NCBI RefSeq assembly: GCF_002250505.1
Contig: NZ_NJGY01000003.1
Coordinates: forward strand, 211,977-275,976
DNA: 64,000 nt
Direction: 5' to 3'
Origin: Janthinobacterium sp. PC23-8
GTDB lineage: Bacteria > Pseudomonadota > Gammaproteobacteria > Burkholderiales > Burkholderiaceae_D
Shown: in pieces, positions 29,608 to 52,663 of the stretch
Layout of the letters: each line of letters begins with the position of its first letter
Numbering within the stretch: the first letter of the stretch is position 1
Position numbers and translations under genes: made by a program
Notes under the pieces: generated by a model
Seen by the model: only the letters and a program-made list of their open reading frames with translations
Told to the model about the DNA's origin: nothing
Databases searched by the model: none

Positions 29608-30141
29608 ATGACTACCCCCGCCAAACCCGCCCCCACGCTCACGCCGCAGCAAACCGCCTTCCGCCATGCGATGGCGCACCTGCCGGCGGCAGTGTGCATC
29701 ATCACCACCGACGGCGACGCTGGCCGCTGCGGCATCACCGCCAGCGCAGTGTGCTCGGTCACCGACAGCCCGCCCACGGTGCTCGTCTGTATCAACCGCA
29801 ACAGCGCCATGCACGACGTGTTCAAGCAGAACGGCCACCTGTGCATCAATGTGCTCAGCGGCGAGCACGAACAGCTGGCCATGCATTTCTCCGGCGCCAC
29901 CAGGGTGGCCATGGACGAGCGCTTCACCTTCGACGACTGGCAGGCCGGCGTGGCGGGCCAGCCGGTGCTGGCCGGCGCGCTGGTCAAGCTGCAAGGCCAT
30001 ATCCAGGACGTCAAGGCGGTCGGCTCGCATTCGGTGCTGTTCGTCGAACTCGACGAGATCGACGTGCGCGAAGAGCGCGACAGCCTGATCTACTTCAACC
30101 GCCTGTTCCACACCGTGCGCCCGACCCGCGCCGTCGCCTGA
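29608..30141 (+). CDS. iacG: Flavin reductase of the indole-3-acetate monooxygenase
   Basis: A 177-residue flavin reductase (HpaC/HsaB type): LPAAVCIITTDGDAGRCGITASAVCSVT (core AVCIITTDG, GITASAVCSV), PPTVLVCINRNSAMHD and HTVRP near the end. It would supply reduced flavin to the acyl-CoA-dehydrogenase-like oxygenase IacA encoded at 37417, 7 kb away. Identified as IacG because the whole iac set is present. Monocistronic: a hairpin follows and the next gene is convergent. AGAGGAGA precedes the ATG. Confidence 0.85.
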   Translation: MTTPAKPAPTLTPQQTAFRHAMAHLPAAVCIITTDGDAGRCGITASAVCSVTDSPPTVLVCINRNSAMHDVFKQNGHLCINVLSGEHEQLAMHFSGATRVAMDERFTFDDWQAGVAGQPVLAGALVKLQGHIQDVKAVGSHSVLFVELDEIDVREERDSLIYFNRLFHTVRPTRAVA

Positions 30142-30164
30142 TTTCACTGCCCCAGTGTAAAGCC

Positions 30165-30193
30165 GGATTGCGGCATTGTTCTAGCCGCAATCC
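30165..30193. terminator. Bidirectional terminator between iacG and iacF
   Basis: GGATTGCGGC, 9-base loop, GCCGCAATCC: a perfect 10-bp stem between the convergent genes ending at 30141 and 30211. Confidence 0.6.
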
Positions 30194-30210
30194 GCAAATC
30201 CACCCCACCG

Positions 30211-31167
30211 TTACAGATCCAGCACCAGCCGCGCCGAGCGCGAGCGCGAGACGCAGGCGCAGATCTGGTCGTTGGCGGCCTTTTCCTTTTTTGACAGGCA
30301 ATGGTCGCGGTGATCCGGCTCACCGTCGAGCACCGGCACCACGCACGTGCCGCAGATGCCCTCCCTGCATGAGGTGTCGAGCATGATGCCGGCGCGCGCC
30401 AGCACGTCGACGATGCTCTCGCCTGGCGGCACCGCCAGCACCTGGCCCGAGGCCGCCAGTTCCAGCTCGAAAGCGTGGTCCGCGCCGCTGGCCGCCACCG
30501 GAGCGGCCTGGAAGTGCTCGAGGTGGATGCTTTCCGACGGGCGATCGAGGGCGGCGCGCGCCACCACGGCGTCCATGAACGGCGCCGGGCCGCAGGTGTA
30601 GACGTGCGCGGCAGCGCCGCTGGCGGCGGCCGCCAGACAGGCGTCGAGCACGCCCGGCATCGCCTCGGGCGACACGCCATAGTGAAAGCGCACATTGCCG
30701 CCGAAGCGCGGCGCCGCCAGCAGCGCCGCAAACGCCGCATCGGTTTGGCTGCGCGCAAAGTAATGCAGCGTGTAGCGCGCCTCGCCGCCGCTCAGGGCAT
30801 ACACCATGTTGAGCAGCGGCGTGATGCCGATGCCGGCGCCGAACAGCACATGTTCGGGCGCGCCTTCATCGAGCGCGAACAGGTTGCGCGGCGCGCCGAT
30901 CTCCAGCGCCGCGCCGGGGCGCACCTGGGCGTGCAGCGCGCGCGAGCCGCCGCGCGAGGCCGCCTCAAGCTTGACGGCGATCCGGTAGCACGACAGGTCG
31001 GCCGGATCGCCGCACAGCGAGTACTGGCGCACGATGCCGCCAGGGACCGTGACGTCGACATGGGCGCCCGGCGTATAGGGCGGCAGCGGCGCGCCGGCCG
31101 GGTCGGTCAGGCGGAAGGCCAGGATGCCTGGCGCTTCTTCGGTAATGCTGGCAACGGTCAGTTTCAT
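30211..31167 (-). CDS. iacF: Ferredoxin reductase of the IAA-pathway Rieske dioxygenase
   Basis: A 318-residue phthalate-dioxygenase-reductase-like protein with VRQYSLCGDP, GAGIGITPLLNMVYAL and a C-terminal [2Fe-2S] domain CREGICGTC plus CACVSRSRSARLVLDL (distal Cys). It would transfer NADH electrons to the IacC Rieske centre. Last of the operon iacI-iacH-iacC-iacD-iacF, 6 bp after iacD. It resembles VanB of this window closely, which suggests an ancient duplication. Confidence 0.85.
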   Translation of the reverse strand: MKLTVASITEEAPGILAFRLTDPAGAPLPPYTPGAHVDVTVPGGIVRQYSLCGDPADLSCYRIAVKLEAASRGGSRALHAQVRPGAALEIGAPRNLFALDEGAPEHVLFGAGIGITPLLNMVYALSGGEARYTLHYFARSQTDAAFAALLAAPRFGGNVRFHYGVSPEAMPGVLDACLAAAASGAAAHVYTCGPAPFMDAVVARAALDRPSESIHLEHFQAAPVAASGADHAFELELAASGQVLAVPPGESIVDVLARAGIMLDTSCREGICGTCVVPVLDGEPDHRDHCLSKKEKAANDQICACVSRSRSARLVLDL

Positions 31168-31173: not shown

Positions 31174-31680
31174 TCACAGTAAAAAGCCGAGCGCATTGAG
31201 CGCGTCTTGCGAATTGACCAGGCGCACTACCTTGCGCACCAGTTTCGGGCCGTCTTCGGTCAGGCGGATGCGGTGCGTCAGGTTGGCGGCGAACAGCGTG
31301 GTCGCGCCGCGCTTGAAGGCGGCCAGCAGCTGGGCCGAGCGTACTTCGATCTCGTCGTCCACGGCTTCGACCAGGGTGAAGCGCGACACCGTGCGCACGG
31401 TGACGGCCGAATCGGCGGCCGACATCGAAAAGCCCGAGGTGAAGCGCTCGATACGCAGCCGGCGCATGCGCGCGTCGTCGTAGACGTAGTTCAGGGTGCT
31501 GGCGAAATCGGTGGTGTCAGGATCGATCGGCACCACATAGTGGCCGTCGTCGGCCCACAGCTGGCCCCAGTCCCCGTAGTTTTTGCTGTCGAGCAGCTCG
31601 GCCTCGTGCCAGACAAAGGCGATGGCGCGGCCGAATGGGGTGTCCTGGCCGGCGCCAGGCAGATTGTGTTGGTTTTTCAT
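31174..31680 (-). CDS. iacD: Rieske dioxygenase small subunit, IAA pathway
   Basis: A 168-residue protein of the BenB/AntB-like small-subunit family: FVWHEAELLDSKNYGDWGQLWADDGHYVVP (core EAELLDSKNYGDW), ERFTSGFSMS and ANLTHRIRL. It has a structural NTF2-like fold and pairs with IacC. Its ATG overlaps the iacC stop (ATGA). The longer open frame upstream lies inside iacC and is not coding. Confidence 0.87.
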   Translation of the reverse strand: MKNQHNLPGAGQDTPFGRAIAFVWHEAELLDSKNYGDWGQLWADDGHYVVPIDPDTTDFASTLNYVYDDARMRRLRIERFTSGFSMSAADSAVTVRTVSRFTLVEAVDDEIEVRSAQLLAAFKRGATTLFAANLTHRIRLTEDGPKLVRKVVRLVNSQDALNALGFLL

Positions 31681-32963
31681 TTGCTCATCATCCTTTTCCA
31701 CATGGCATAGGCTTCGCGCATGCCGGTTTCGTCTGTCGAATGCGACACCTTGTCGCCGTTCTGGTCCTGCCACTCGCGGTTCAGGCCGCGGTTGACGAGT
31801 ATCGGCACGTCGCGCCCGGCGTGCGCGCCGGCCTGCACGCGCTCCCACGCCTCGGCGTCGTCCGGGCTGCCGAAGCCGAACGGGCCCTGGAAGTGTTCGT
31901 GGATGCGCAGCCGTTCGCGGTTGGCGATCTCGGGGCCGCCGTCCATGCCCAGCGCCACGTGGCGGATTTCCGTCTCGTCGACGGCCACCGGGCGCAGCAC
32001 GCGGAAAAACGACATCGACATGGCCACGTTGGGAAACAGGTTCAGGTTGAAGCCGGCGCCGTGCAGCGAGCGCACGATGCGGCGCACCTGCTCGGGCGGA
32101 TAGTCCTTCGACAGTGCTTCGGTGACGTGGGCGAAGCGCTCCTGCAGTGCCTCGGTGCCGTCGTCGATATCGAGGTCGACGTGCTCGGGCACCATCACCA
32201 TCACGCTGTGGCCATTGCCCAGCGAACGGGTGATCGATTCCTCGTCGGTCATGAACGACAGCATGGCCGAGGTTTCCGCGTCGACCGACTGCAGGAAAGT
32301 CTTGTGCACCACCGGAAAGTGGTAGCCGTCGGTGGTGTTCTCGAGCTGGATCTTCCAGTTGCCCTTGAAGCTGAACTTGTGTTCGCCCTGGGTCTTGACC
32401 GGGAAGCCGGCGCCCTGTTTCATGAACAGGTCGATCCAGTGCCGGGCGTTGCCCAGGAAGTCTTCCAGCGGTTCCACGTCCTGGTTGTAGCTGGCGAAGA
32501 TCATGCCGCCATACACGCCGACCTTCAGGCTTTTCAGCGGCAGGTCCGATTTTTCGATCACGTCCTCGTAGCCGTCGGCATACGGCAGGCCGCGCAGCTT
32601 GCCGTCCAGGCCATACGACCAGCTGTGATAAGGGCAGGTAAAGCCGGTGGCGTTGCCACGGGTTTTTTCGCAGACGGTGGCGCCGCGGTGGCGGCAGCGG
32701 TTTTCCAGCACGTGGATAGCGTGCTGGCGGTCGCGCACCACGATCACCGGATTGCGGCCGACAAAGGTCGAGCGGAAGTCGCCCGGCTTGGGCAGTTCGC
32801 TGACGTGGGCCACCCAGATCCAGGTCTGGCTGAAGATGCGGTCCATTTCTGCGTCAAAGATCTGCGGATCGGTGTACAGCGAGGGGTCGACCAGGGCGTC
32901 CTGGACCAGGTCGGCGTAGCCGGACTGCGCGGTGCGCGGGTGGAAGCGTAAGGGGGCGTTCAT
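31677..32963 (-). CDS. iacC: Rieske dioxygenase large subunit, IAA pathway
   Basis: A 428-residue benzoate/anthranilate-dioxygenase-like catalytic subunit. Rieske ligands are C90, H92, C110, H113. The mononuclear iron site is D212-G-Y-H215-x4-H220. In the iac pathway this enzyme acts on an oxidised indole-acetate intermediate (dioxindole-3-acetate in published work) and leads to catechol. Taken alone it could be an anthranilate or salicylate oxygenase; the complete surrounding iac set decides. Its ATG overlaps the iacH stop. Confidence 0.87.
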   Translation of the reverse strand: MNAPLRFHPRTAQSGYADLVQDALVDPSLYTDPQIFDAEMDRIFSQTWIWVAHVSELPKPGDFRSTFVGRNPVIVVRDRQHAIHVLENRCRHRGATVCEKTRGNATGFTCPYHSWSYGLDGKLRGLPYADGYEDVIEKSDLPLKSLKVGVYGGMIFASYNQDVEPLEDFLGNARHWIDLFMKQGAGFPVKTQGEHKFSFKGNWKIQLENTTDGYHFPVVHKTFLQSVDAETSAMLSFMTDEESITRSLGNGHSVMVMVPEHVDLDIDDGTEALQERFAHVTEALSKDYPPEQVRRIVRSLHGAGFNLNLFPNVAMSMSFFRVLRPVAVDETEIRHVALGMDGGPEIANRERLRIHEHFQGPFGFGSPDDAEAWERVQAGAHAGRDVPILVNRGLNREWQDQNGDKVSHSTDETGMREAYAMWKRMMSK

Positions 32964-34147
32964 GGGTGCTCCTGTGGTTGATCGGGTGAGTGATCTGGTG
33001 AATGAGAGGGAACGGCGTGATGGTCCAGCATGTCCTGCAGATGCAGCGCGAGGGCGCACAGGCGTTCGTCGTCGCCCTTGCGCCCGATCAGTTGCAGGCC
33101 CGCCTTCCAGGGCGAACCGGCGGCCAGCGATATCGGCAAACTCAGCGCCGGATGGCCGCTGAGATTGAAGGGGCGCACCAGCCGGCTCAAGGCGAGCACC
33201 GGCTGGCCCGCCGCCACCTCGGCCAGGGTCGGCGGCAGCGACGGCAGGGTCGGCAGCACCAGCGCGTCGACGCCTTCGAGCGCGCGGTCGACCTCGTCGG
33301 TAAAGGCGCGGCGCACCTGTTCGGCGGCGGCGCGCGCGGCGTCGGTGGTGGCGCCGGCGGCCGCCAGGCGCGCGGCCACGTCGGCGCCCACCTTGCCACT
33401 GCCCAGCAAGTGGCCGAAGGCGGCCCAGGTCTCGACATTGATGATGGTCATGCCGGCCTGGAACGCCGCGTCCAGGCCGGGCAGGGCGCGTTGTTCGGTG
33501 TGCCAGCCGCTGGCGCCAAGCGCCTGGTTCAGCGCCGCTTCGATGGCGGCGTCGCTGCCGGTGGCCAGCACGCCGACGCTGGCCTGCGCCTGCGGCGTGT
33601 TGGCCCGCGCCGCGTCAAAAGCGGGGACGATCGCCGCCATCACCTGGTTCAGCACCCGCATCTCGCGCGCCAGAGGGCCGACGCAATCGAGGCTGCTGTC
33701 GCGCGGCCAGGCGCCGGCCCGGCTGACGCGCCCGAAGGTAGGTTTGAAGCCGATCACGCCGCAGCAGGCCGCCGGCAGGCGGATCGAGCCACCGGTGTCG
33801 CTGCCCAGCGCCGCGTCGGCCTCGCCGTCGCCGACGGCCACCGCCGAGCCGCTCGACGAGCCGCCCGGTATCCATTGCGCATGCTGCGCATTGCGCGGCG
33901 TGCCGGCCCAGTGGTTAATGCCGGTCATGCCGTAGGCCAGTTCGTGCATGGTGGTCTTGCCGTTGATTAGCCAGCCAGCAGCCAGCAGCAGGCGCACCGC
34001 CTCGGCGTGCCGTGCCGCCGGCGCGCTGTCGGCCAGCGCGGCGCTGCCGCCGCGCGTGGCGTGGCCGGCGATGTCGATGCAGTCCTTGATGGCGATGCTG
34101 GCGCCGCCCTCGCGGCCCAGCGTGAACCGTTCAACATAGGCGTTCAT
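32960..34147 (-). CDS. iacH: Amidase-signature hydrolase of the iac cluster
   Basis: A 395-residue amidase-signature protein. The catalytic triad appears intact: Lys21 in IAIKDCID, the cis-Ser at 97-98 in GGSSSGSA and nucleophile Ser121 in DTGGSIRLP, with the 24-residue Ser-Ser spacing of the family. It presumably opens an amide (lactam-like) bond in an oxidised indole intermediate; its role in published iac pathways is not fully settled. The open frame extends upstream into iacI, but the ATG at 34147 overlaps the iacI stop and fits. Confidence 0.83.
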   Translation of the reverse strand: MNAYVERFTLGREGGASIAIKDCIDIAGHATRGGSAALADSAPAARHAEAVRLLLAAGWLINGKTTMHELAYGMTGINHWAGTPRNAQHAQWIPGGSSSGSAVAVGDGEADAALGSDTGGSIRLPAACCGVIGFKPTFGRVSRAGAWPRDSSLDCVGPLAREMRVLNQVMAAIVPAFDAARANTPQAQASVGVLATGSDAAIEAALNQALGASGWHTEQRALPGLDAAFQAGMTIINVETWAAFGHLLGSGKVGADVAARLAAAGATTDAARAAAEQVRRAFTDEVDRALEGVDALVLPTLPSLPPTLAEVAAGQPVLALSRLVRPFNLSGHPALSLPISLAAGSPWKAGLQLIGRKGDDERLCALALHLQDMLDHHAVPSHSPDHSPDQPQEHP

Positions 34148-34665
34148 GCGCTTTTCTCCCCGGCTGGCGCTGGGTTCCATGGCACGCATTCCAGGCGTTC
34201 GGTGCGAAAGTGCGCGATCAGCCAGCGACCGTCCGGCAGCGGCGCAAAATCGACTTCCAGGCGCGCCGTGATCGCCTGCGCGTCGCCGTCGCCGTCGCCG
34301 TAGGTCGACAGCTGCAGCATCAGCCACTGGCCGCGCGCGCCGGCGCCGTCTTCGTTGACATACACCTGGTCGGAGGTGAGAAAGTGCAGGTTGCGCCGGA
34401 AGTGGGTGGATGGCGCCAGGTAGGCGCCGACAAAGGCGGCGATCGCTTGCCGGCCCTGGTGGCGGCCGAAGGTGCCGGCATACAGCGCGCCGACGCCTTC
34501 CCATACCGCGTCGTCGGTAAACAGGTCGGCCAGTTGCGGAAAACGGCGGTCGGCGCAGGGCTGGTCGCACAGCTGCATGTAGCGTCCCAGCGTGTTGCGT
34601 ACCTGCTGCGCCGCTTCCACGCGGGACAGGCGTGCGGCCAGGTCTTGCAGTGCAGTGGTGCTCAT
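34144..34665 (-). CDS. iacI: SnoaL/NTF2-like protein of the iac cluster
   Basis: A 173-residue NTF2-fold protein: LGRYMQLCDQP, FPQLADLFTDDAVWEGVG, FVGAYLAPSTHFRRNLHFLTSDQV (core THFRRNLHFLTS). Size and context match IacI. Its exact reaction is unresolved in the literature as far as I know. First gene of the minus-strand operon iacI-H-C-D-F, with GGGAGA before the ATG, and divergent from a LysR gene. Confidence 0.8.
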   Translation of the reverse strand: MSTTALQDLAARLSRVEAAQQVRNTLGRYMQLCDQPCADRRFPQLADLFTDDAVWEGVGALYAGTFGRHQGRQAIAAFVGAYLAPSTHFRRNLHFLTSDQVYVNEDGAGARGQWLMLQLSTYGDGDGDAQAITARLEVDFAPLPDGRWLIAHFRTERLECVPWNPAPAGEKSA

Positions 34666-34790: not shown

Positions 34791-35714
34791 ATGACGACCT
34801 TTAACAATGTGGACCTGAACCTGCTGCGCGTGTTCCAGGCGGTATCGGAAGAGCGCAGCCTGACCCTGGCGGGCCACCGCCTGCACCTGTCGCAGCCGGC
34901 CGTCAGCTACGCCGTCAGCCGCCTGCGCGAACTGTTCAACGACCCGCTGTTCGTGCGCACGCGCGACGGCATGCAGCCGACGCCGGCCGCGCTGGAACTG
35001 GCCAAGCCGATCGGCCGCGCGCTGCAGGCCGTGCACGAAGCGTTGCGCTATGCCGACGGCTTCGATCCGGCGTCCAGCACGCGCGTGTTTCGCGTGTCGA
35101 TGACGGACGTGGCCGAAATGGTGTTCCTGCCGCCGATCTGCGAGCAGTTGCGCCAGCTGGCGCCCCAGGTGCAGCTGAAGGTGGTGCAGGTGCCGCAGGA
35201 GGGTCTCGTCGAGGCGCTGCGCACTGGCAACATCGATTGCGCGATCGGCAACCTGCCGGCGATCCGCGAGGCCACGCGCCACGCCTTGCTGTTCAGCGAA
35301 TCGTATTGCTGCCTGACGCGCCGCCGCGCGGGGTTGCCGCGGCGCCAGGCGCTGCGCCTGGAGGAATTCGAGGCGCTATCGCATGTGCAGGTGCGTTCGG
35401 CCGAAAGCAGCCATAGCCAGGTGGCGCAGGCGCTGCACGGGCTGGGGGTGGCGCGCCGGGTGGCGCTGGAGATTCCGCATTTTTCGGTGCTGCCGCTGAT
35501 CCTGGCGCAATCGGACCTGGCGGCCACGGTGCCGCTGCGCATCGGGCGGTTGTTCAACGCCGGCAAACAGTTCGCGCTCTACGAGTTGCCGGTGGCGCTG
35601 CCGCCGGTCGACATCATGCTGCACTGGCACGAGGAGTTTGACAACGACCTGGCCGGCAAGTGGCTGCGCCAGCTGGTGCTGGACCTGTTGCAGGGTTACG
35701 GCCGCAATTGCTGA
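34791..35714 (+). CDS. LysR-family regulator, divergent from iacI
   Basis: A 307-residue LysR protein of the NodD/NahR-like branch: NVDLNLLRVFQAVSEERSLTLAGHRLHLSQPAVSYAVSRL (core LSQPAVSYAVSRLR), then an effector domain. It faces the iacI-H-C-D-F operon, which has no FixJ-type box, so it likely controls that transcript. Its last 19 bases overlap the end of the convergent histidine kinase gene. Confidence 0.87.
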   Translation: MTTFNNVDLNLLRVFQAVSEERSLTLAGHRLHLSQPAVSYAVSRLRELFNDPLFVRTRDGMQPTPAALELAKPIGRALQAVHEALRYADGFDPASSTRVFRVSMTDVAEMVFLPPICEQLRQLAPQVQLKVVQVPQEGLVEALRTGNIDCAIGNLPAIREATRHALLFSESYCCLTRRRAGLPRRQALRLEEFEALSHVQVRSAESSHSQVAQALHGLGVARRVALEIPHFSVLPLILAQSDLAATVPLRIGRLFNAGKQFALYELPVALPPVDIMLHWHEEFDNDLAGKWLRQLVLDLLQGYGRNC

Positions 35715-37225
35715 ACGCCGCTGTCGGCCAGCCGTGGCAAGAGCGGCAGCGCGAAGCGGAACAACGCGCCGCCCGGTGCGCCCTGTTCGGCCCAGATGTC
35801 GCCGCGATGGCGGCCGATGATGTTCTTGCATAGCGCCAGGCCGATGCCGTTACCGCTCACTTTCGAGGTAAAGAAGCCGTCGAACAGGCGCTCGTGCAGG
35901 GCGGCGGCGATGCCCTCGCCCTGGTCGCGCACCGACAGCAGCGCCCGGCCGCCGTCGGCCTGGCACCAGAGTTGAACCCGGCGCCGCGCTTGCGGCGCGC
36001 GCTGCATCTCCTCGATGGCGTTGAAGGCCAGGTTCAGGATCACTTGGCCAATCAGCACCTTTTCGCAGCTGATCATCAAAGGCTGCGGCGCGAATTCAAA
36101 CGCCAGCCGCACGCCGGCCTCGGCCGCTTTCAGTTCGATGAAGTAGCGGGTGTCGGCCAGGATGGCGTTCAGGTCGGCCGGCGCCTCCGTTTGTTCGAGC
36201 TTGACCACGTAGGCGCGCACGCTGCTGATGATGGCGCTGGCGTGGTCGACCTGGCGCGCGGCGGCGTCCAGCCCGAACAGCAGATCCTCGCGGGCGGGGT
36301 GCTTGTCGGTGGCGGCGCCGCGCAGGCGCAGGCTGGTGCCCTCGATATAGTTGCGGATCGCCGCCAGCGGCTGGCTCAGTTCATGCGCGATGGCGCCGGC
36401 CATTTCGCCCATGGCATTGTGGCGCGCCAGGTATTCGAGCGCGGCCTGCTGGTCGCGCCGCGCGCGCGCCGCTTCCACCTGTTCGCTGATGTCGCGAAAA
36501 TGCAACAGGTGGCCCGTGAGATCGCCCTCGATATCGATATGGCGGCAGCTGCCCTGGAACCAGCGGCGCCGGCCCTCGGCGCCGGTTGTCGTGGAAAAGC
36601 CCAGCGACAGCGCCGGGCCGTCCGGCAGGGCCAGCGCCAGCACCCGTTCGAGTTCGTGGCGCGAATCGGTCACGCACAGGCTGCGCAGCAGGGGCAGGGC
36701 GGCGCCTGGCGCGGCGTCGAGGTGCAGCAGCTGGCGCCCGGCCGCGCTCAGGTAGGCGAAGCGGCCGTCGGCGTCCAGCACCGCCACGCCCTCGTCGGAG
36801 TCCTGCATGAATTCCTTGAGCCGGCTTTCCAGCCGTTTCATCTGGCGCCTGGCCTGCTCCTCGCGCGCGATGTCGCGAAACTGCACCATGATCACGTCGC
36901 CGCCGGACAGGTGCACCAGGGTGGCCACCGCTTCGGACATGATGTCCTCGCCCTGCTTGCTGCGATAGCACCATTCGATGATATTGATGCCGCGTTCGAC
37001 CGCCCCCTGCAGCCAGCGCAGGCCGATATCGCGGCCGTAGCGCGCCGTATGCGCGCTCATGTCGGGCGCCTTGAGCGGCAGCAGCTCCTCGAGGGTGAAG
37101 CCGAGCACGGCGCAGGCGGCCGGGTTGGCCCAGACGATGGCCTTGGTGGCCGCGTCGTGCACGATGATGCAGGAGGACATGGCCTGCACCATGCGCTGGA
37201 AATCGCCCGATTCGAATTGCGCCAT
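35696..37225 (-). CDS. Cytosolic PAS-PAS histidine kinase
   Basis: A 509-residue FixL-like kinase without membrane segments. Two PAS domains (about 5-120 and 138-250) are followed by the dimerisation helix with H281 in AIAHELSQPLAAI and the ATPase domain (LNLAFNAIEEM, DQGEGI, FFTSKVSGNGIGLALCKNII). The PAS region probably senses IAA or a metabolite in the cytosol. The frame opens at a TTG (37240), but the ATG at 37225 has GGAGA 6 bases upstream. No response regulator is adjacent; the FixJ-type protein at 28845-29498 is the obvious partner. Confidence 0.85.
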   Translation of the reverse strand: MAQFESGDFQRMVQAMSSCIIVHDAATKAIVWANPAACAVLGFTLEELLPLKAPDMSAHTARYGRDIGLRWLQGAVERGINIIEWCYRSKQGEDIMSEAVATLVHLSGGDVIMVQFRDIAREEQARRQMKRLESRLKEFMQDSDEGVAVLDADGRFAYLSAAGRQLLHLDAAPGAALPLLRSLCVTDSRHELERVLALALPDGPALSLGFSTTTGAEGRRRWFQGSCRHIDIEGDLTGHLLHFRDISEQVEAARARRDQQAALEYLARHNAMGEMAGAIAHELSQPLAAIRNYIEGTSLRLRGAATDKHPAREDLLFGLDAAARQVDHASAIISSVRAYVVKLEQTEAPADLNAILADTRYFIELKAAEAGVRLAFEFAPQPLMISCEKVLIGQVILNLAFNAIEEMQRAPQARRRVQLWCQADGGRALLSVRDQGEGIAAALHERLFDGFFTSKVSGNGIGLALCKNIIGRHRGDIWAEQGAPGGALFRFALPLLPRLADSGVQQLRP

Positions 37226-42413: not shown

Positions 42414-42437
42414 GGAGTGAACAATACGAGGAGTGCC

Positions 42438-44830: not shown

Positions 44831-45619
44831 ATGCCGATACTCGAGCCGGGCGAGCACCAGATCGCCTACACCTTGCAAGGCCCGGCCACGGCCCCGGTGC
44901 TGGTGCTGTCCAATTCGCTGGGCACCACCTTGTCGATGTGGGACGCCCAGGCCGACGCCCTGGCGCGCGGCTTTCGCGTGCTGCGCTACGACACGCGTGG
45001 CCATGGACGCTCGGCTGCGGGTGAGCACCCGCAGCAAGGCTACACGCTGGCGCAACTGGGCGGCGACGTGCTGCGCCTGCTCGACGCGCTGGCCATCGAA
45101 CGCGCGCATTTCTGCGGTATTTCGATGGGCGGCCTGACCGGCCTGTGGCTGGGGGTGCATGCCGGCCACCGCCTGCATAAACTGGTGGTGGCCAACAGCG
45201 CGGCGTGCATCGGCGCAGCGCCGGCGTGGCGTGAACGCGCCGCCCTGGTGCTGGCAAGCGGCATGGACCAGGTGGCCGACGGCGCCGCCGCGCGCTGGTT
45301 CACGCCAGGCTGGGCCGCCGGCGCGCCGCAGGCGGTCGGGCAACTGATCAGCGAGTTGCGCGCCACCGCGCCGGCCGCTTACGCCGGCTGCTGCCTGGCG
45401 CTGGCGCAGGCCGACCTGCGCGACGCAATTTGCGGCATTGCCGCGCCCACCCTGCTGGTGGCCGGCGACAGCGATCCGGTCACGCCGCTGGCCGATGCCG
45501 TCTTCATGGCCGAACGCATCGCCGGCGCGCAGCTTGTCACGCTGCCGGCCTCGCACCTGTCTAACATCGAGGCGGCCAGCACCTTTACCGAAGCGCTGCA
45601 GGCGTTTCTCGGCGCCTAG
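44831..45619 (+). CDS. pcaD: 3-oxoadipate enol-lactonase
   Basis: A 262-residue alpha/beta hydrolase: LSNSLGTTLSMWDAQ, YDTRGHGRS, nucleophile Ser in GISMGGLTG, Asp in AGDSDPVTP and His in PASHLSNIE. It completes catechol to 3-oxoadipate. It is a second PcaD activity beside the fused enzyme at 21667-22938, dedicated to the cat operon (12 bp after catA). Confidence 0.9.
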   Translation: MPILEPGEHQIAYTLQGPATAPVLVLSNSLGTTLSMWDAQADALARGFRVLRYDTRGHGRSAAGEHPQQGYTLAQLGGDVLRLLDALAIERAHFCGISMGGLTGLWLGVHAGHRLHKLVVANSAACIGAAPAWRERAALVLASGMDQVADGAAARWFTPGWAAGAPQAVGQLISELRATAPAAYAGCCLALAQADLRDAICGIAAPTLLVAGDSDPVTPLADAVFMAERIAGAQLVTLPASHLSNIEAASTFTEALQAFLGA

Positions 45620-45655: not shown

Positions 45656-46981
45656 ATGCAACACACCCTGACCGACACGGCGGCCGGGCGGACTTCTGCC
45701 GCCCGCGCTACCGACGACGCGCTGTACCGCAAGGTCACGCGCCGCATCATTCCCTTTCTGTTCGTCTGCTATGTGGTCTCCTTCCTGGACCGCATCAACA
45801 TCGGTTTCGCCCAGCTGCAACTGAAGCAGGATCTCGGCTTCAGCGACGCCATGTACGGCCTGGGCGCGGCGGTGTTTTATATCGGCTACGTGCTGTTCGA
45901 GGTGCCCAGCAACCTGCTGCTGGCGAAATACGGCGCGCGCCGCACCTTTATCCGCATCATGCTGCTGTGGGGCGCGGCCTCGGTCGGCATGATGGCGATT
46001 GCCACGCCGACCCAGTTCTACGTGCTGCGCTTTGCGCTGGGCGTGTTCGAGGCCGGTTTTTTTCCCGGCATCGTGCTGTACCTGACGTACTGGTATCCGC
46101 CGCTGCGGCGCGCCTCGGTGCTGTCGTATTTCTTTGCCGGCGTGGCCGTGGCCGGCATCGTCGGCGGCCTGGTGTCGGGCTGGATCATGCGTGACATGGC
46201 CGGCGTGCTGGGGCTCAAGGGCTGGCAGTGGATGTTTGTCATCGAAGGCTCGCCGGCGCTGCTGCTCGCGCTCATCGCGTACCGCTACCTGGATGATTAT
46301 CCGCAGGATGCGCGCTGGCTGACGACGGCGGAAAAGGCGCGCCTTGCCGCCAATCTGGGCAGCGGCCAGGCAGCCCGCCGCAGCGCCGGGGCCTCGCTGG
46401 CGGCCTGCCTGCGCGACCCGCGCATCTATCTGTACTCGTTGCCGTATTTCGCCCTGACCGGGGCGGCGCTCACCCTGAGCTTCTGGATGCCGCTGATGAT
46501 CCGCGATTTCGGCGTCAGGGACGTGATGCAGGTGAGCCTGTATTCGGTAATTCCCTACACCATCGGCGCGCTCGGCGTGCTGCTGCTGGCGCGTGCCGCC
46601 GACCGTCACCGCCGTCACGGCGCGTACTTTGCCGGCTGCGCCGTGGCCGGCGCGCTGGCTCTGGCGGCGCTGACCACGCATCCGTCCAGCCTGGTCGTGG
46701 CGCTGGGCCTGTTGTCGGTGGCGGCGGTGGCGCTGTACTCGGGCTTGCCGATTTTCTGGGCGATACCGACGGCGCACCTGCCGCCCGACATGCGCGCCGG
46801 CGGCATCGGCGTCATCAGCAGCCTGGGCACCAGCGCCGGCATCGTCGCGCCATGGGCCATCGGCCAGGTCAAGACCGCCACCGGCAGCATGGATGGCGCG
46901 CTGCTGGGCCTGGGTGTGCTGCTGGTGGCCAGCGCCATGGTGCTGCTGGCGGCCCAGCGCGGCGCGAAGGAGGCGGCATGA
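45656..46981 (+). CDS. MFS permease (anion:cation symporter-like)
   Basis: A 441-residue 12-helix transporter of the ACS/phthalate-permease-like group: FLDRINIGFAQLQLKQDLGFSDAMYGLGAAVFYIGYVLFEVPSNLLLAKYG (core NIGFAQLQLKQDLG, FEVPSNLLLAKYGAR). It would import an organic anion, possibly IAA or another aromatic acid, given that it is 36 bp downstream of the cat operon and MFS permeases accompany iac genes elsewhere. Substrate not determinable from sequence. Confidence 0.85.
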   Translation: MQHTLTDTAAGRTSAARATDDALYRKVTRRIIPFLFVCYVVSFLDRINIGFAQLQLKQDLGFSDAMYGLGAAVFYIGYVLFEVPSNLLLAKYGARRTFIRIMLLWGAASVGMMAIATPTQFYVLRFALGVFEAGFFPGIVLYLTYWYPPLRRASVLSYFFAGVAVAGIVGGLVSGWIMRDMAGVLGLKGWQWMFVIEGSPALLLALIAYRYLDDYPQDARWLTTAEKARLAANLGSGQAARRSAGASLAACLRDPRIYLYSLPYFALTGAALTLSFWMPLMIRDFGVRDVMQVSLYSVIPYTIGALGVLLLARAADRHRRHGAYFAGCAVAGALALAALTTHPSSLVVALGLLSVAAVALYSGLPIFWAIPTAHLPPDMRAGGIGVISSLGTSAGIVAPWAIGQVKTATGSMDGALLGLGVLLVASAMVLLAAQRGAKEAA

Positions 46982-47269
46982 ACCGCTCCAGGGCCGCGCC
47001 CATATCCGTAATTCGCAAGCCGCCAGCGTGGCCGGCGGCGACTCTCGTCTCCGGTGCGTCCGGCGCACCAGGCCAGTGCGCCGCAGGGACCGCCGCCGCA
47101 TCGCTTGCCCCTTGGCCGTGCACGGCTGCGGCCCGGGCCGTCGCGCGCCGCCAACAATGCGCGCGCGGCAGGCCGGCGATCTGCGGTTTCCGGATAACGC
47201 GCAGTACCGGCCGCTGCATAAGCTGATGACACGGTGATGACATTCAACCTACCCAACGGGAATAATTTT
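46982..47269. other. Non-coding interval before the amine dehydrogenase operon
   Basis: About 290 bp between the MFS gene and aauB. The only frames are low-complexity Arg/Ala/Pro ORFs of no recognisable family. An imperfect inverted repeat lies near its ends (around 46999-47020 and 47179-47200). It must hold the aau promoter, but I cannot point to convincing -35/-10 elements. Confidence 0.4.
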
Positions 47270-48457
47270 ATGAACAAGAAAATGACATCAAGAGACACGG
47301 CGCCAGCCAGGCGGCACGGCTGGAAGCCTGCCGCCATGGCCTGCATCATGGCGGCCATGGCGGCCAGCGCCCCGGCGCAGGAGTTCGTGCCCGAGACGCT
47401 CAAGGATGGCGTGGCGCTGCCGGCCGATATGCCGCGCATTTACGTGGGCGACTTTGCGATCGGCCATCTGATGGACGGGCGCATCAACGTGCTCGATGGG
47501 CGCAGCGGCAAATACGCCGGTGTGATCGATGGCGGCTTCGCCGGCCATTTCACCGCCTCGCCGGACGGCAAACAGCTGTATGTGGCGACCACCTACCTGA
47601 CGCGCCACACGCACGGCGAGCGCCATGACGTCGTCGAGATCTACGACGCCGATACGCTGCGGATCACCGGCGACGTCGAACTGCCGCCCAAGCGCGCCCA
47701 GTCGGCCTACCAGCAAACGCTGAGCCGCACCTCGCATGACGGCCGCTATCTGTTCGTGCAGAACGCCACGCCGGCCACCTCGGTGTCGGTGGTCGACGTG
47801 CGCGACAAGAAAATGCTGGTCGAAGTGCCCACCGCCGGCTGCTGGGGCATCTACCCGTCGCAGACCGAGGCGCTGCGCTTCTCGATGCTGTGCGGCGACG
47901 GCAAGCTGGCCACCGTCACGCTCGACGCCGAAGGCAAGGTGAGCGGGCGGGCCGTGTCGGCCAAGTTCTTCGACTCGGGCACCGATCCGATCTTCACGGC
48001 GATGGTGGCCGATCAGGCGCGCTACTACTTCATCGGCTTTACCGGCACCTTGTTCCGTGCCGACCTGCGCGGCGCCGAGCCGGTGCTGGAAAACGCGGTG
48101 CAGGTGGTGCCGGCGGCCGAGCGCAAGGCCGGCTGGCGCCCGGGCGGCTACCAGCTGCTGGCGCTTGACACTGCGCGCAAGCAGCTGTTCGTCGGCATGC
48201 ACGCCAAGGGCGTCGAAGGCAGCCACAAGACGCCGGCCCAGGAAATCTGGACGCTGGACCTGGCCAGCGGCAAGCGCCTGGCGCGCACCAGGGCCTTGAA
48301 CGCCATCGCGCTGACGGTGTCGCAGAAAGCACCGAACTACCTGTATGCAATCAACGGCGCCACCAACCAACTGGTGGCCTACCAGCTGCCCGGCCTGCGC
48401 CAGGTGTTCGTCTCGGCGCCGATCGGCGAAGCGCCGCTGCAGGTGGATGCGCCATGA
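47270..48457 (+). CDS. aauB: Aromatic amine dehydrogenase large subunit
   Basis: A 395-residue periplasmic seven-bladed beta-propeller: signal peptide (AAMACIMAAMAASAPAQ), RIYVGDFAIGHLMDGRINVLDG, AGHFTASPDGKQLYVATTYLTRHTHGERHDVVEIYD (core TYLTRHTHGERHD) and a C-terminal NYLYAINGATNQLVAY. This is the MauB/AauB heavy chain that holds the TTQ subunit. The frame is open from 47234; I prefer the ATG at 47270 because it begins a normal signal peptide and has GGGA at 47258-47261. Overlaps aauE by four bases. Confidence 0.9.
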   Translation: MNKKMTSRDTAPARRHGWKPAAMACIMAAMAASAPAQEFVPETLKDGVALPADMPRIYVGDFAIGHLMDGRINVLDGRSGKYAGVIDGGFAGHFTASPDGKQLYVATTYLTRHTHGERHDVVEIYDADTLRITGDVELPPKRAQSAYQQTLSRTSHDGRYLFVQNATPATSVSVVDVRDKKMLVEVPTAGCWGIYPSQTEALRFSMLCGDGKLATVTLDAEGKVSGRAVSAKFFDSGTDPIFTAMVADQARYYFIGFTGTLFRADLRGAEPVLENAVQVVPAAERKAGWRPGGYQLLALDTARKQLFVGMHAKGVEGSHKTPAQEIWTLDLASGKRLARTRALNAIALTVSQKAPNYLYAINGATNQLVAYQLPGLRQVFVSAPIGEAPLQVDAP

Positions 48458-49008
48458 ACCTTTACGCCGAACCGGTGCTGACGCTGCTGCCGAGCGCCTT
48501 TTTCACCTTGCTGCTGGGGATTGCCGCCACCCACAAGCTGACCGCCTGGCGCGTGTTCGAACAGCAGGTGGCCGACTACCGCGTGCTGCCGAAGGCCTGG
48601 ACCGGCATCGCCGCAGTGCTGTTGCCGGCAGCCGAGGCGCTGCTGGCGCTGGGCTGGCTGGCCGACGGCACGCGTGCGCCGGCGGCGGGCTTGACCGCGC
48701 TGCTGTTGGCGACCTACGCCGGCGCGATGGCGTGGAATTTGCGCCAGGGCCGCGACTTCATCGACTGCGGCTGTGGCGGCGTCGATGGCGCCCAGGTGAT
48801 CCGGCCGGCGCTGGTGGCGCGCAACCTGCTGCTGGCAACGGTGGCGGCGGCGATGGCGCTGTGGACCAGCCATCTGCCGCTTGCCGCGCGCGTGCCGGGC
48901 TGGATCGACTGGCTCAGCGTGTTTGCCGGCGCGGCGGCGCTGCTGGGTATCTATGTCACGGTCAACCAGATACTGGCCAACCTGCCGCCGCAGCGCGTGC
49001 TCGATTAA
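48454..49008 (+). CDS. aauE: MauE-type membrane protein, amine dehydrogenase maturation
   Basis: A 184-residue integral membrane protein with four to five hydrophobic helices, belonging to the MauE/DoxX-like group; conserved segments FFTLLLGIAATHKL, NLRQGRDFIDCGCGG (paired Cys) and RNLLLATVAAAMAL. MauE is needed for formation or stability of the light chain with its many disulfides. Coupled to aauB (ATGA) and 24 bp before aauD. Confidence 0.88.
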   Translation: MNLYAEPVLTLLPSAFFTLLLGIAATHKLTAWRVFEQQVADYRVLPKAWTGIAAVLLPAAEALLALGWLADGTRAPAAGLTALLLATYAGAMAWNLRQGRDFIDCGCGGVDGAQVIRPALVARNLLLATVAAAMALWTSHLPLAARVPGWIDWLSVFAGAAALLGIYVTVNQILANLPPQRVLD

Positions 49009-49032: not shown

Positions 49033-49659
49033 ATGGAAACCGCTTTGCTCATATCGAATGGCTTGTTGTGGTGCGTCTTGCTGGCGCTGGTGGTGATGGT
49101 GATCGCGCTGGCGCGCCAGGTCGGCGTGCTGTTTGAACGGGTGGCGCCGATGGGCGCCCTGGTGACGGACTCCGGGCCGAAGGTGGGCCAGCCGGCGCCG
49201 TCGATGGCGCTGCGCACGATGGACCAGGCCGGCCTGCAACTGCCTGGCGCGGCAGGCACCAGCACCTTGCTGTTCTTCCTGTCGCCGACCTGCCCGGTGT
49301 GCAAGAAGCTGCTGCCGGCGCTCAAGTCGATGCAGAAGGCCGAAGCCGGCTGGCTGCAGATGGTGCTGGCCAGCGATGGCGACGTGCTCGAACACCAGGC
49401 GTTTCGCAGCGAGTACGGCCTGACGGGCTTCCAGTACGTGCTGTCGGCGCCGCTGGGCATGGCTTACCGCGTGGCGCGCCTGCCGTATGCGGTGCTGATC
49501 GACGCCAGCGGCGTGGTCAGCGCCAAGGGCCTGATCAATTCCCGCGAACAGCTTGAAAGCCTGCTCACGGCGCAGGAACTGGGCGTGGCCTCGGTACAGG
49601 AATACCTGGACGCCCCGGCCGCGCACCAGCACGAGCACCAGCACGCACACCAACACTAA
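49033..49659 (+). CDS. aauD: MauD-type thioredoxin-like protein, amine dehydrogenase maturation
   Basis: A 208-residue membrane-anchored (helix about 9-28) periplasmic thioredoxin-fold protein with C87-P-V-C90 in FFLSPTCPVCKKLLPAL. MauD homologues isomerise or form disulfides in the TTQ light chain. Unusual is the C-terminal tail, in which His alternates with Gln/Glu/Ala (HQHEHQHAHQH), possibly metal binding. Located 12 bp before the light-chain gene. Confidence 0.9.
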   Translation: METALLISNGLLWCVLLALVVMVIALARQVGVLFERVAPMGALVTDSGPKVGQPAPSMALRTMDQAGLQLPGAAGTSTLLFFLSPTCPVCKKLLPALKSMQKAEAGWLQMVLASDGDVLEHQAFRSEYGLTGFQYVLSAPLGMAYRVARLPYAVLIDASGVVSAKGLINSREQLESLLTAQELGVASVQEYLDAPAAHQHEHQHAHQH

Positions 49660-49671: not shown

Positions 49672-50211
49672 ATGTTCAACTGGTTCGACAAGCTGGCCGA
49701 GCGCCAGAGCCGCCGGCTGGCGCAGACGGTCTCGCGCCGTCACGCCCTCACCACCATCAGCCGCGCGCTGGTGGGCGCCGCCTTTATCCTGCCGGTGCTG
49801 CCGTTCGACCGCAGCGAGGCCAAGGCCGCCACGCACGGCGGTGCCAAGGGTGGCGCCAACGCCGCCACCGAGGACCCGACCGCCTGCGAATACTGGCGCT
49901 ACTGCGCCATCGACGGCTTCCTGTGCTCGTGCTGCGGCGGTTCGCTCACACAGTGCCCGCCGGGCACCAACGCCTCCAAGGTCAGCTGGGTGGGCACCTG
50001 CCACAACCCGAAGGACGGCAAGGACTACCTGGTCAGCTACAACGACTGCTGCGGCAAGACCTCGTGCGGCAAATGCATGTGCAACACCAATCTGCGCGAG
50101 CGTCCCGGCTACAACCTGGGGCTGCACAACGATATCAACTGGTGCATGAGCAACGACAGCTCGATGTTCCATTGCACCACGGCCTCCGTGGTCGGCCTGG
50201 CGGAGGACTAG
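49672..50211 (+). CDS. aauA: Aromatic amine dehydrogenase TTQ light chain
   Basis: A 179-residue precursor with a long leader containing a twin-arginine pair (SRRHALTTISRALVGAAF; R22-R23) for folded export. The mature part is Cys-rich (about 14 Cys: CEYWRYC, LCSCCGG, DCCGK). W106 (VSWVGTC) and W157 (INWCMS) are 51 residues apart, as are the two Trp that form tryptophan tryptophylquinone in methylamine dehydrogenase. The enzyme oxidises amines such as phenethylamine, tyramine or tryptamine to aldehydes in the periplasm. No mauG or mauFGLMN genes are nearby, as in the Alcaligenes aau cluster. Confidence 0.92.
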   Translation: MFNWFDKLAERQSRRLAQTVSRRHALTTISRALVGAAFILPVLPFDRSEAKAATHGGAKGGANAATEDPTACEYWRYCAIDGFLCSCCGGSLTQCPPGTNASKVSWVGTCHNPKDGKDYLVSYNDCCGKTSCGKCMCNTNLRERPGYNLGLHNDINWCMSNDSSMFHCTTASVVGLAED

Positions 50212-50212
50212 C

Positions 50213-50671
50213 ATGCGCACCTTTGCAACCATCGCCACGGCCGGCCTGGCCGCCGCGCTGCTCGCTGGCCCGGTGGCGCAGGCGCAGCAGATCAAGGGCG
50301 CCGACGTCTACCACAGCGCCTGCATGATGTGCCACCAGGCCCAGGCCCAGGGCGCGGCCGGCCTGGCGCCGCCGCTCAAGGGCAGCTATTGGGGCGAGCT
50401 GGGCAAGCTGCCCGGCTATGTGCCCGGCGTGCTGCTGGCCGGCATGCACGGTCCGCTGGCAACCGACGAAGGCCAGTTCAATGGCGTCATGCCGACCCAG
50501 AACCGGCTCAGCGACGCCGAGATTGCCGCCGTCAGCAATTACGTGGTGCGCGAGGTCAATGGCCAGGCTGCGGCGCCGGCGGTCGCGGCGTTGGATGTGG
50601 CGGCGCTGCGCGCCAAGCCGCCGACGGTGTCGGAACTGCGCGGCATGCGCAAGAAAGCGCTGCCAAAATGA
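50213..50671 (+). CDS. Periplasmic c-type cytochrome 1
   Basis: A 152-residue monohaem cytochrome c with signal peptide (TIATAGLAAALLAGPVAQA), haem site CMMCH and the axial-Met region FNGVMPTQNRLSDAEIAAVSNYV (core NGVMPTQNRLSD). It starts two bases after the aauA stop. Likely takes electrons from the TTQ enzyme, in place of the azurin/amicyanin used by other systems. Confidence 0.88.
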   Translation: MRTFATIATAGLAAALLAGPVAQAQQIKGADVYHSACMMCHQAQAQGAAGLAPPLKGSYWGELGKLPGYVPGVLLAGMHGPLATDEGQFNGVMPTQNRLSDAEIAAVSNYVVREVNGQAAAPAVAALDVAALRAKPPTVSELRGMRKKALPK

Positions 50672-51198
50672 AGCCCTCCCATCGCCCGTCCTGTCATCGG
50701 GCCTGGCTGGCGCTGGGCCTGGCGGCCTGCCTGGCCGGTATGCCGGCCGCCGCAGCCTCGGCAGCATCAGCATCGGCAGCGGCGCCATCGAGCGTATCGG
50801 TCGAGCGCGCGCGCGGCCTGTTCATGCTCCATTGCGCCGGCTGCCACCGGGTCGACGGCAGCGGTGCGCCCGGCTTCGGCGTGCCAACCATGATCAATAC
50901 CCTGGGCCAGTTCCAGCGCACCAGCGCCGGGCGCGCCTTCCTGTTGCAGGTGCCGGGGGCGCGCAACGCGGCCATCACCGACGCCGAACTGGCGGCGCTG
51001 ACCAACTGGGCGGTAAAGGCGTTTTCCGCGCCGACCCTGCCTGCCGATTTCCAACCCTATACGACGGCCGAAGTGACGCACTGGCGCGCCAACGCGCCGC
51101 TCGACATCGCCGGCACGCGCGAGGCCGTGGTGGCCGCGCTGCCGCCGATGCCCGCAATGACTACCTATAACAAACACCAAGGAGACAAGCATGACTAG
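50668..51198 (+). CDS. Periplasmic c-type cytochrome 2
   Basis: A 176-residue cytochrome c with an Ala/Ser-rich leader, haem site CAGCH (FMLHCAGCHRVDGSGAPGFG), a candidate Met ligand in VPTMINTLGQF and a C-terminal extension with TAEVTHWRANAPLDIAGTR. It overlaps the previous gene by four bases and the aldehyde dehydrogenase gene by eight. Two cytochromes in tandem suggest a relay from the amine dehydrogenase to the terminal oxidase. Confidence 0.82.
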   Translation: MKPSHRPSCHRAWLALGLAACLAGMPAAAASAASASAAAPSSVSVERARGLFMLHCAGCHRVDGSGAPGFGVPTMINTLGQFQRTSAGRAFLLQVPGARNAAITDAELAALTNWAVKAFSAPTLPADFQPYTTAEVTHWRANAPLDIAGTREAVVAALPPMPAMTTYNKHQGDKHD

Positions 51199-52663
51199 CC
51201 TGGCCGAACAATTCCAGTTGCAGCAGCAGTACCGGCATTTCATCAACGGACTATGGCAGGACGGCGGCGACGGCCATATCGACGTCGTCAATCCGGCGCG
51301 CGAAGAGGTGATCGCGCGCGTGCCGGCCGGCGGCGCCGCCGAGATCGACGCCGCGGTGCGCGCGGCGCGCGCCCAGTTTGCCGGCGGCGCCTGGTCGCGC
51401 CTGTCCGGCCCCGAGCGCGGCGCCCTGATCCTCAAACTGGCCGACCTGGTCGAACGCGACGCCGCCATCATCGCGCGCCTCGACGCGCTGTGCATCGGCC
51501 GTCCGATGCATGAGCCGGCCATGCTGGACCTGCCCAACGCGCTGGCCACCTTGCGCCACAACGCCGGCTGGGCCGACAAGATCGAAGGGCGCACCATCCC
51601 CAATCCCGGCTATTTCGGCCGCCCGACCGTGACTTACACGCGGCGCGAGGCGATCGGCGTGATCGGCGCCATCGTGCCGTGGAACACGCCGTTCATGATC
51701 ACCTGCTGGAAGCTGGCGCCGGCGCTGGCGACCGGCTGCACCATCGTCATCAAGCCGGCCGAGGAAACCCCGCTGTCGGCGCTGCACCTGGCCGCGCTGG
51801 TGGCCGAAGCGGGCTTTCCGCCGGGCGTGGTCAATGTCGTGACCGGCCGCGGCGCGGTGGCCGGCGCGGCGCTGTGCGTCCATCCCGGCGTCGACAAGAT
51901 CAGCTTTACGGGCAGCCCGGTGGTGGGCGCCGAGATCATGCGCGCGGCCGGCCCGCTGTTCAAGCGCGTGGCGCTGGAACTGGGCGGCAAGTCGCCGCAG
52001 GTGGTGTTCGCCGACGCCGACCTGGAACGCGCGATCCAGGGCTGCGCCATGGGCCTGTTCTTCAACCAGGGCCAGGTCTGCGCGGCCGGCACCCGGCTGC
52101 TGGTGCAGCGCCCCATCTATGAACAGTTCGTCGCTGGCCTGCGCCAGGCGGCAGACAACGTCAAGGTCGGCGATCCGCTGGAAGAGGGCGTGTCGATGGG
52201 TGCGGTGGCCAAGCGTTCGCAGTACGACAGCATCGCGCGCTATATCCAGGCGGGCTGCGACGAGGGCGCGACCCTGGTCACGGGCGGCGCGGTGGAGGGC
52301 GGCAAGGGCTGGTTCATCCGTCCGACGCTGTTTGCCAACGCCCGCAACGACATGCGCATCGCCCGCGAGGAGATCTTCGGGCCGGTCGGCACCATCATCG
52401 CCTTCGACACCGACGAGGAAGCGCTGGCGCTGGCCAATGACAGCAAATACGGCCTGGGCGCGACCATCTGGACGCGCGACATCACGCGCGCCCACACCAT
52501 GGCCGCCGCCATCGAAGCCGGCGCGGTCGGCATCAACGGCTGGGCGCCGATGGATGCGCGCGTGCCCTGGGGCGGCGTCAAGAGCAGCGGCCTGGGACGC
52601 GAGCTCGGTTACAGCGGCATCGAGGCCTGCACCGAAGAGAAGGTCATTACCGTGGTGCTGTAA
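51191..52663 (+). CDS. Aldehyde dehydrogenase (phenylacetaldehyde/indole-acetaldehyde type)
   Basis: A 490-residue NAD(P)-dependent aldehyde dehydrogenase: GAIVPWNTPFMITCWKLAPALA, FTGSPVVGAEIM, LELGGKSP (Glu) and NQGQVCAAGTRLLV (catalytic Cys), with C-terminal VPWGGVKSSGLGRELG. It belongs to the phenylacetaldehyde/betaine-aldehyde-like class, with no signal peptide, so it acts in the cytosol on the aldehyde formed by the periplasmic amine dehydrogenase. With tryptamine as substrate its product would be IAA, the substrate of the iac genes upstream. Confidence 0.87.
   Translation: MTSLAEQFQLQQQYRHFINGLWQDGGDGHIDVVNPAREEVIARVPAGGAAEIDAAVRAARAQFAGGAWSRLSGPERGALILKLADLVERDAAIIARLDALCIGRPMHEPAMLDLPNALATLRHNAGWADKIEGRTIPNPGYFGRPTVTYTRREAIGVIGAIVPWNTPFMITCWKLAPALATGCTIVIKPAEETPLSALHLAALVAEAGFPPGVVNVVTGRGAVAGAALCVHPGVDKISFTGSPVVGAEIMRAAGPLFKRVALELGGKSPQVVFADADLERAIQGCAMGLFFNQGQVCAAGTRLLVQRPIYEQFVAGLRQAADNVKVGDPLEEGVSMGAVAKRSQYDSIARYIQAGCDEGATLVTGGAVEGGKGWFIRPTLFANARNDMRIAREEIFGPVGTIIAFDTDEEALALANDSKYGLGATIWTRDITRAHTMAAAIEAGAVGINGWAPMDARVPWGGVKSSGLGRELGYSGIEACTEEKVITVVL

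Follow-up and report, generated by a model that had tools for sequence, protein, structure and literature searches.

An aromatic amine dehydrogenase operon beside indoleacetate and catechol degradation genes in Janthinobacterium sp. PC23-8, a probable arylethylamine catabolic module

Analysing a 64,000-nucleotide stretch of the Janthinobacterium sp. PC23-8 genome (6.39 Mb in 12 contigs; contig NZ_NJGY01000003.1, positions 211,977 to 275,976; the whole stretch is called the window below), we found the genes of an aromatic amine dehydrogenase (AADH; aau genes) side by side with a complete set of iac genes for the degradation of indole-3-acetic acid (IAA) and with the cat and pcaD genes leading from catechol to 3-oxoadipate. 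The region most likely is one arylethylamine catabolic module with tryptamine or a close indolethylamine as its main substrate, a reading to which we assign a probability of roughly 70%. What carries it can be observed directly, namely the gene content, the AADH type of the dehydrogenase, an operator conserved upstream of aau genes and a linkage of aau with iac that is repeated in other genomes. The enzymes and steps are known; their combination is new.

A first-pass annotation had listed iacA to iacI, catB-catC-catA-pcaD, a permease gene and a tryptophan tryptophylquinone (TTQ) amine dehydrogenase operon with two cytochromes c and an aldehyde dehydrogenase. Every one of these genes was recovered in its place, on mixed strands, by gene calling and domain scans, and the gene set is thus confirmed: iacA, C, D, E, F, G, H and I are recognised by domain and iacB by position, catB, catC and pcaD exceed their NCBIfam cut-offs, and the amine dehydrogenase is of the AADH type by both subunits. 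Overlooked at that stage were the tautomerase-like gene, catR, the AraC gene, the LysR gene, the PAS kinase, the operator pair and, just beyond the range then annotated, the response regulator. Gene names are based on families (Pfam, NCBIfam) and synteny; G344 in the following list is another genome of the family Oxalobacteraceae.

28845-29498, minus strand: response regulator of FixJ/LuxR type (Pfam Response_reg and GerE; FixJ-like below cut-off)
29608-30141, plus strand: iacG, flavin reductase (PF01613; above the NCBIfam HpaC cut-off)
30211-31167, minus strand: iacF, ferredoxin/reductase partner of the Rieske dioxygenase (Fer2 domain; synteny)
31174-31680, minus strand: iacD, ring-hydroxylating dioxygenase beta subunit (PF00866)
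31677-33059, minus strand: iacC, Rieske dioxygenase alpha subunit (PF00355 and PF00848; 95% identity in G344)
32960-34147, minus strand: iacH, amidase family (PF01425; start taken from the translation)
34144-34665, minus strand: iacI, SnoaL-fold protein (PF13577)
34791-35714, plus strand: LysR-type regulator, probable iacR (PF00126 and PF03466; 92% in G344)
35696-37225, minus strand: PAS sensor histidine kinase, probable iacS (HATPase_c, PAS)
37417-38595, plus strand: iacA, acyl-CoA-dehydrogenase-like flavin monooxygenase (PF08028/PF02771; nearest NCBIfam model HsaA, below cut-off)
38632-38994, plus strand: iacB, small protein (named by its position between iacA and iacE)
38998-39744, plus strand: iacE, short-chain dehydrogenase (PF13561)
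39756-40160, plus strand: two-domain 4-oxalocrotonate tautomerase-like gene (PF01361, two stretches)
40135-41157, plus strand: catR, LysR-type regulator (nearest models AlsR/BenM/CatM, all below cut-offs)
41263-42285, plus strand: AraC-type regulator, predicted regulator of aau (between catR and catB)
42417-43577, plus strand: catB, muconate cycloisomerase (TIGR02534, 562 bits; cut-off 335)
43593-43883, plus strand: catC, muconolactone isomerase (TIGR03221, above cut-off)
43907-44818, plus strand: catA, catechol 1,2-dioxygenase (PF00775 and PF04444)
44831-45619, plus strand: pcaD, 3-oxoadipate enol-lactonase (TIGR02427, above cut-off)
45656-46981, plus strand: MFS permease, iac-associated (PF07690; HpaX-like below cut-off)
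47000-47017, minus strand, and 47182-47199, plus strand: inverted pair of 18-bp boxes, predicted AraC operator of aau
47234-48457, plus strand: aauB, AADH heavy chain (PF06433; start 47234, 47237 or 47270)
48454-49008, plus strand: aauE, MauE family (PF07291)
49033-49659, plus strand: aauD, MauD family (TIGR02661, above cut-off)
49672-50211, plus strand: aauA, AADH light chain with the TTQ precursor tryptophans (PF02975)
50213-50671, plus strand: first cytochrome c, one CxxCH (PF00034)
50668-51198, plus strand: second cytochrome c, one CxxCH (PF00034)
51191-52663, plus strand: aldehyde dehydrogenase, StyD-like (PF00171)
52740-59361, plus strand: DUF1329, DUF1302, RND (HAE3-like) and YCF48-like genes, aau-associated transporter cassette

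The type of the dehydrogenase follows from both of its subunits. The AauA light chain scores 201 bits to the Alcaligenes AADH (comparison structures including 2agl) and 160 and 126 bits to methylamine dehydrogenase (MADH) structures, the AauB heavy chain 256 bits to AADH versus 137 to MADH, and a reading of the aau genes as MADH is thereby rejected. W109, W160, D128, T172 and F169 are all present in the light chain of the window; positions 109 and 160 we take to be the TTQ tryptophans, and Asp128 and Thr172 the catalytic residues. Throughout an alignment of 136 light chains W109, W160 and D128 are invariant, while position 172 is Thr in 83 of them (the window included) and Ser in 53; the window shares Thr172 and Phe169 with the Alcaligenes enzyme and has Ile in place of Val at 158. 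The operon runs aauBEDA with cytochrome c 3', which contrasts with Paracoccus mau, and it contains no mauG, mauF or amicyanin-type gene (the rest of the genome was not searched for mauG). The Alcaligenes faecalis aau cluster has the same order aauB-E-D-A with cytochrome c downstream, and its operon likewise is not known to contain any of these three gene types; the window differs from it in its two cytochromes, the StyD-like aldehyde dehydrogenase within the operon, the AraC regulator and the linkage to iac and cat genes.

Linkage of aau with iac is rare but recurrent, and it comes in different arrangements. Within the family sample (n=392), 22 genomes encode IacA-like proteins and eight have light chains above cut-off, the Janthinobacterium genome alone belonging to both groups; two of the 22 (G380 and G389) have a paralogue only, without adjoining iacB and iacE. 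The sample of the genus counts 40 genomes, one of which, the present one, has IacA (E 1e-60) and two of which have a light chain. Since the order from iacG to the MFS gene, minus the AraC gene, is kept in G344 (76-96% protein identity) and in G285 (67-93%), it is more than chance; both genomes have iac-catR-catBCA-pcaD-MFS without aau, and in both the MFS gene follows pcaD (82% and 76%, respectively), as in the window, where 252 bp separate it from aauB on the same strand. Most iac loci in the family have the PAS kinase gene next to iacA, and the response regulator, probably the partner of this kinase, adjoins iacG also in G344, G285 and Pseudoduganella namucuonensis, G394 (69-93% identity).

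For the Betaproteobacteria, the best 80 of 319 light-chain loci from named genomes were kept as the aau set, and 50 of these loci, from 49 genomes, were searched for IacA (the 30 left out are mostly from Achromobacter), which is present in 7 of the 49 genomes. In P. namucuonensis a single contig of 64 kb carries aau, iacA-I, catABC and pcaD, with 29 kb between aauA and iacA; in a metagenome-assembled genome (G393), aau adjoins araC-catB-catC-pcaD, catR and iacG, and iacA-B-E together with a catA are found on another short contig. It should also be noted that IacA alone was rejected as a marker of iac, as IacA-like proteins of about 51-61% identity occur without iac neighbours (on Caballeronia and Delftia plasmids, and in L104-L113 and L128 with at most about 1.5 kb per side); the marker being too loose, we claim linkage only for loci with several iac genes side by side.

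A second class contributes the Sphingomonadaceae. Plasmid tblastn searches with AauA and with IacA both returned pNL2 of Novosphingobium aromaticivorans, which is no unbiased draw, as it was found by searching both genes. Its gene run begins with iacG, E, B, A, I, an aldehyde dehydrogenase, AraC, iacD, C, H, a TonB receptor and a cytochrome c, and continues with aauB, E, D, A, a cytochrome-like protein, CoA transferase genes, pcaF, pcaD, LysR, catB, catC and catA; the proteins are 32-62% identical to those of the window, five genes have no match, and no iacF is annotated in the run. The pNL2 heavy chain is closer to AADH (163 bits) than to MADH (138 bits), the light chain not clearly so, a MADH chain being best with 159 bits, followed by AADH (154) and another MADH (133). 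A further sample comprised 397 genomes of the family of G464, drawn regardless of iac; G464 was assigned to the sphingomonads via plasmid matches alone (6 of 19 records being Sphingomonas), an assignment consistent with the best matches to pNL2 genes within the sample. Light chains occur in 38 of these genomes, at 50 loci, all of which were inspected together with flanks of up to 20 kb per side where contigs allow, and two have an iac set beside aau. In G820, iacD, C, H, A, B and G stand before aau and iacE and I after it; G1060 has a pNL2-like series of iacG, E, B, A, aldehyde dehydrogenase, AraC, aau, 3-oxoadipate and cat genes, and its iacH, I, C and D lie about 17-21 kb before aauB.

Taking all 136 aau/mau sequences together, several iac genes accompany the dehydrogenase in the window, pNL2, G820 and G1060a, and iacG plus cat genes do so in L003. 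On a tree of 133 dehydrogenases (FastTree only; three of the 136 sequences, which have no heavy chain, were left out; long branches, including that of G820, are flagged), the label 'linked' on six rows needs four changes, gains and losses not being separated; a single gain without loss therefore cannot account for the linkage, and the module probably was assembled more than once. The first-pass annotation had named a lack of conservation in relatives as a point that would tell against its proposal; since other genomes, in two classes, show the linkage, this is not the situation encountered, though most relatives are without it. Leu158-Asp159 beside the cofactor tryptophan occur in five of the 136 light chains (pNL2, EMRT-2, G1060a, G1079b and G820; EMRT-2 has an IacA-like gene elsewhere on the plasmid, and in G1079 iac was looked for in the flanks only), and these changes on the sphingomonad branch may mark a preference for indolethylamines. 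At somewhat less than even odds, we consider that aau and iac came together on two or more occasions, in Oxalobacteraceae and in Sphingomonadaceae, as a dedicated module for tryptamine or indolethylamines such as serotonin, the sphingomonad dehydrogenase perhaps carrying the Leu158 and Asp159 marks of that preference.

Regulatory sequences add to this picture. The AraC protein encoded at 41263-42285 is orthologous to, and 55-62% identical with, the product of an AraC gene divergent from aauB in L002, L003 and L004; the gene is not part of the G344 or G285 clusters, and an AraC gene of this aau type lies immediately 5' of catB both in the window and in G393. Common to L002, L003, L004 and the window is an inverted pair of 18-bp boxes, about 160-210 bp apart, upstream of aauB. 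A matrix built from L002-L004 finds a site within 600 bp 5' of aauB in 34 of 76 other betaproteobacterial loci, compared with 0-4 of 76 for random 600-bp windows of the same loci in ten draws, and in G394 a second operator pair precedes a separate aldehyde dehydrogenase gene. The conserved operator thus predicts an aau regulon in many Betaproteobacteria. Scored with the betaproteobacterial matrix, sphingomonad boxes did not rise above shuffles, and conservation of the operator across classes is therefore not claimed; the boxes that lie between iacH and the TonB/aau genes of pNL2 are no more than suggestive.

G344, which has iac and no light chain, contains after its MFS and porin genes a region that aligns with the aauB promoter of the window (163 of 270 columns identical; score 98, with none of 500 single-base shuffles scoring above 32). 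This stretch (L143, 3844-4135) is followed by unrelated sequence and appears to be the remnant of a lost aau operon, in which case the gene order of the window would predate this single genome. A tRNA bordering the remnant was considered and rejected, ARAGORN giving no match there, and a small open reading frame at the same edge has no Pfam match; in G285, the matrix scan yielded no such operator site.

The following route is proposed. Periplasmic AauAB would oxidise tryptamine to indole-3-acetaldehyde and ammonia, passing the electrons to the cytochromes c; the aldehyde would enter the cell and be converted to IAA by the StyD-like dehydrogenase, for which inspection by eye revealed no signal peptide. 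IacA with IacG, IacE and IacB, followed by IacH, IacI and the Rieske system IacC/D/F, would take IAA to catechol, and CatA, CatB, CatC and PcaD would carry catechol on to 3-oxoadipate. IacA of Caballeronia glathei, in Escherichia coli cells with IacE, was reported to be inactive on tryptamine in the part of PMC7225977 consulted, so that the amine must be removed first. The AraC protein is predicted to turn on aau through the inverted operator pair, and in G394 also the separate aldehyde dehydrogenase gene. Because iac and cat have regulators of their own (LysR, the two-component system and CatR), induction probably is sequential, with the amine inducing aau, IAA inducing iac and muconate inducing cat.

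A number of results weigh against a single module. Of the 80 betaproteobacterial aau loci, 79 have no iac set within their flanks, an absence that is weak because the flanks are short (about 10 kb, less at contig ends; in L004 iac lies beyond the flank), and 48 of the 50 sphingomonad light-chain loci have none either. P. rivuli possesses a close aau and no IacA match, aauA and iacA are on different contigs in the other five of the seven aau genomes with IacA, and the distribution within the genus is one of patchy acquisition. The closest family of the aldehyde dehydrogenase is the phenylacetaldehyde dehydrogenase StyD (714 bits, below the cut-off of 800), and elsewhere in the genome there are PaaA/C-type and HmgA genes fit for phenethylamine and tyramine. 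Of the boxes in the G344 remnant one is good and one weak (plus-strand 22.7, partner 10.4 with the L002-L004 matrix; both below 11 with a wider matrix), and matrix scans found no aau operator 5' of the iac genes in the window, which makes sequential regulation the simplest arrangement. Alcaligenes AADH oxidises several arylethylamines, tryptamine included; the AADH and StyD-like sequences as such do not allow the amine to be read from them, be it tryptamine, phenethylamine or tyramine. The scarcity of iac near aau, the StyD-like neighbour and the PaaA/C-type and HmgA genes would all suit a general degrader of arylethylamines (phenethylamine, tyramine, dopamine) that feeds the phenylacetate or homogentisate pathways, with iac a mere neighbour sharing no flux. 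Yet aau and iac are linked in two classes in at least three arrangements, whereas phenylacetate genes lie beside aau in only one and homogentisate dioxygenase (hmgA) in none of the 136 sequences (tblastn, E 1e-15, with this genome's own proteins as queries), and we regard this explanation as unlikely, although, given the PaaA/C-type and HmgA genes, the same dehydrogenase may also serve phenethylamine and tyramine.

Still less probable, in our view, is that chance and horizontal transfer brought aau, iac and cat together, as many aromatic pathways gather on plasmids and islands. The patchiness in the genus, the plasmid location of the N. aromaticivorans locus, the 29 kb between aau and iac in P. 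namucuonensis and a second aromatic gene pair close by in the window (26629-28807) are what such an effect would produce; it accounts less well for the iac genes on both sides of aau in G820, the aldehyde dehydrogenase and AraC genes that interrupt the iac series of pNL2, the aauB promoter remnant behind the iac-cat-MFS-porin genes of G344 and the aau-type AraC gene 5' of catB in two genomes. The arylethylamine module thus remains the preferred reading, and the single route from tryptamine via IAA to catechol, as first suggested, stands as far as the AADH type, the complete iac set and the repeated linkage are concerned, while tryptamine as the amine, the flux and the regulation are what we only infer.

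Tryptamine serves as a precursor of auxin and also acts as a signal in plants, insects and guts. Should the proposed route hold, the module makes auxin from tryptamine and then destroys it, and the bacterium could use, perhaps briefly release, a plant hormone; two pathways so far studied apart would be united, and N. aromaticivorans DSM 12444 and P. namucuonensis, both with known genomes, are organisms in which this can be tested. The open-licence papers searched contained no joined aau-iac locus. As far as the consulted parts of the descriptions go, the iac clusters of C. glathei, Paraburkholderia phytofirmans/P. xenovorans and Pseudomonas putida 1290 share iacA-I and nearby cat genes with the window, and those of Paraburkholderia include a LysR-type IacR and an MFS permease, with a LuxR and IacS two-component system in P. 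phytofirmans; no amine dehydrogenase is mentioned in these parts (PMC7225977, PMC11676955, PMC11630574). In comparison, the window has aau, the AraC regulator, the aldehyde dehydrogenase and the two-domain tautomerase in addition. A MarR-type regulator is reported, in the parts consulted, for iac clusters of most genera; none occurs among the genes examined between 28845 and 41157, where LysR and two-component regulators are found instead, as in Paraburkholderia-type clusters.

Some details of the gene list deserve mention. The start of iacC is uncertain, its open reading frame overlapping the end of iacH; the IacB product has no Pfam match, is 96% identical in G344 and 57% in pNL2, and its gene adjoins iacA in iac loci of the family. 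The tautomerase-like gene stands beside iacE in G344 and G285 and occurs on the iac contig of G393, being iac-associated in Oxalobacteraceae; we know of no role for a two-domain tautomerase-like protein in the iac pathway. The SnoaL fold of IacI corresponds to the description of this protein in the part of PMC7225977 consulted.

Relatives of the RND and DUF1329 genes of the transporter cassette occur together in 31 of the 80 aau loci, and a similar cassette lies close to aau on a plasmid of Cupriavidus pinatubonensis. By its description, the cassette resembles AmeABCD of Castellaniella defragrans, a HAE3-family RND exporter that has outer-membrane and periplasmic partners and is encoded next to a catabolic cluster (PMC6394551, which mentions DUF1302 and DUF1329 once each), the HAE3-like RND gene here being located 3' of aau. 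A single operator match at 55881-55898, 5' of the RND gene, scores 16.1 with the wider matrix, and a lone match outside the module (25715-25732, minus strand) scores 18.9-21.3 with three matrices and below 11 with the wider one. The gene pair at 26629-28807 consists of an AraC regulator gene (HpaA-like, below cut-off) and, divergent from it, a gene of the 4-hydroxybenzoate 3-monooxygenase family. On the 3' side of the module, the window contains a Tar-type chemoreceptor gene (59358-60998) and a gene of the flavin amine oxidase family (61761-63218).

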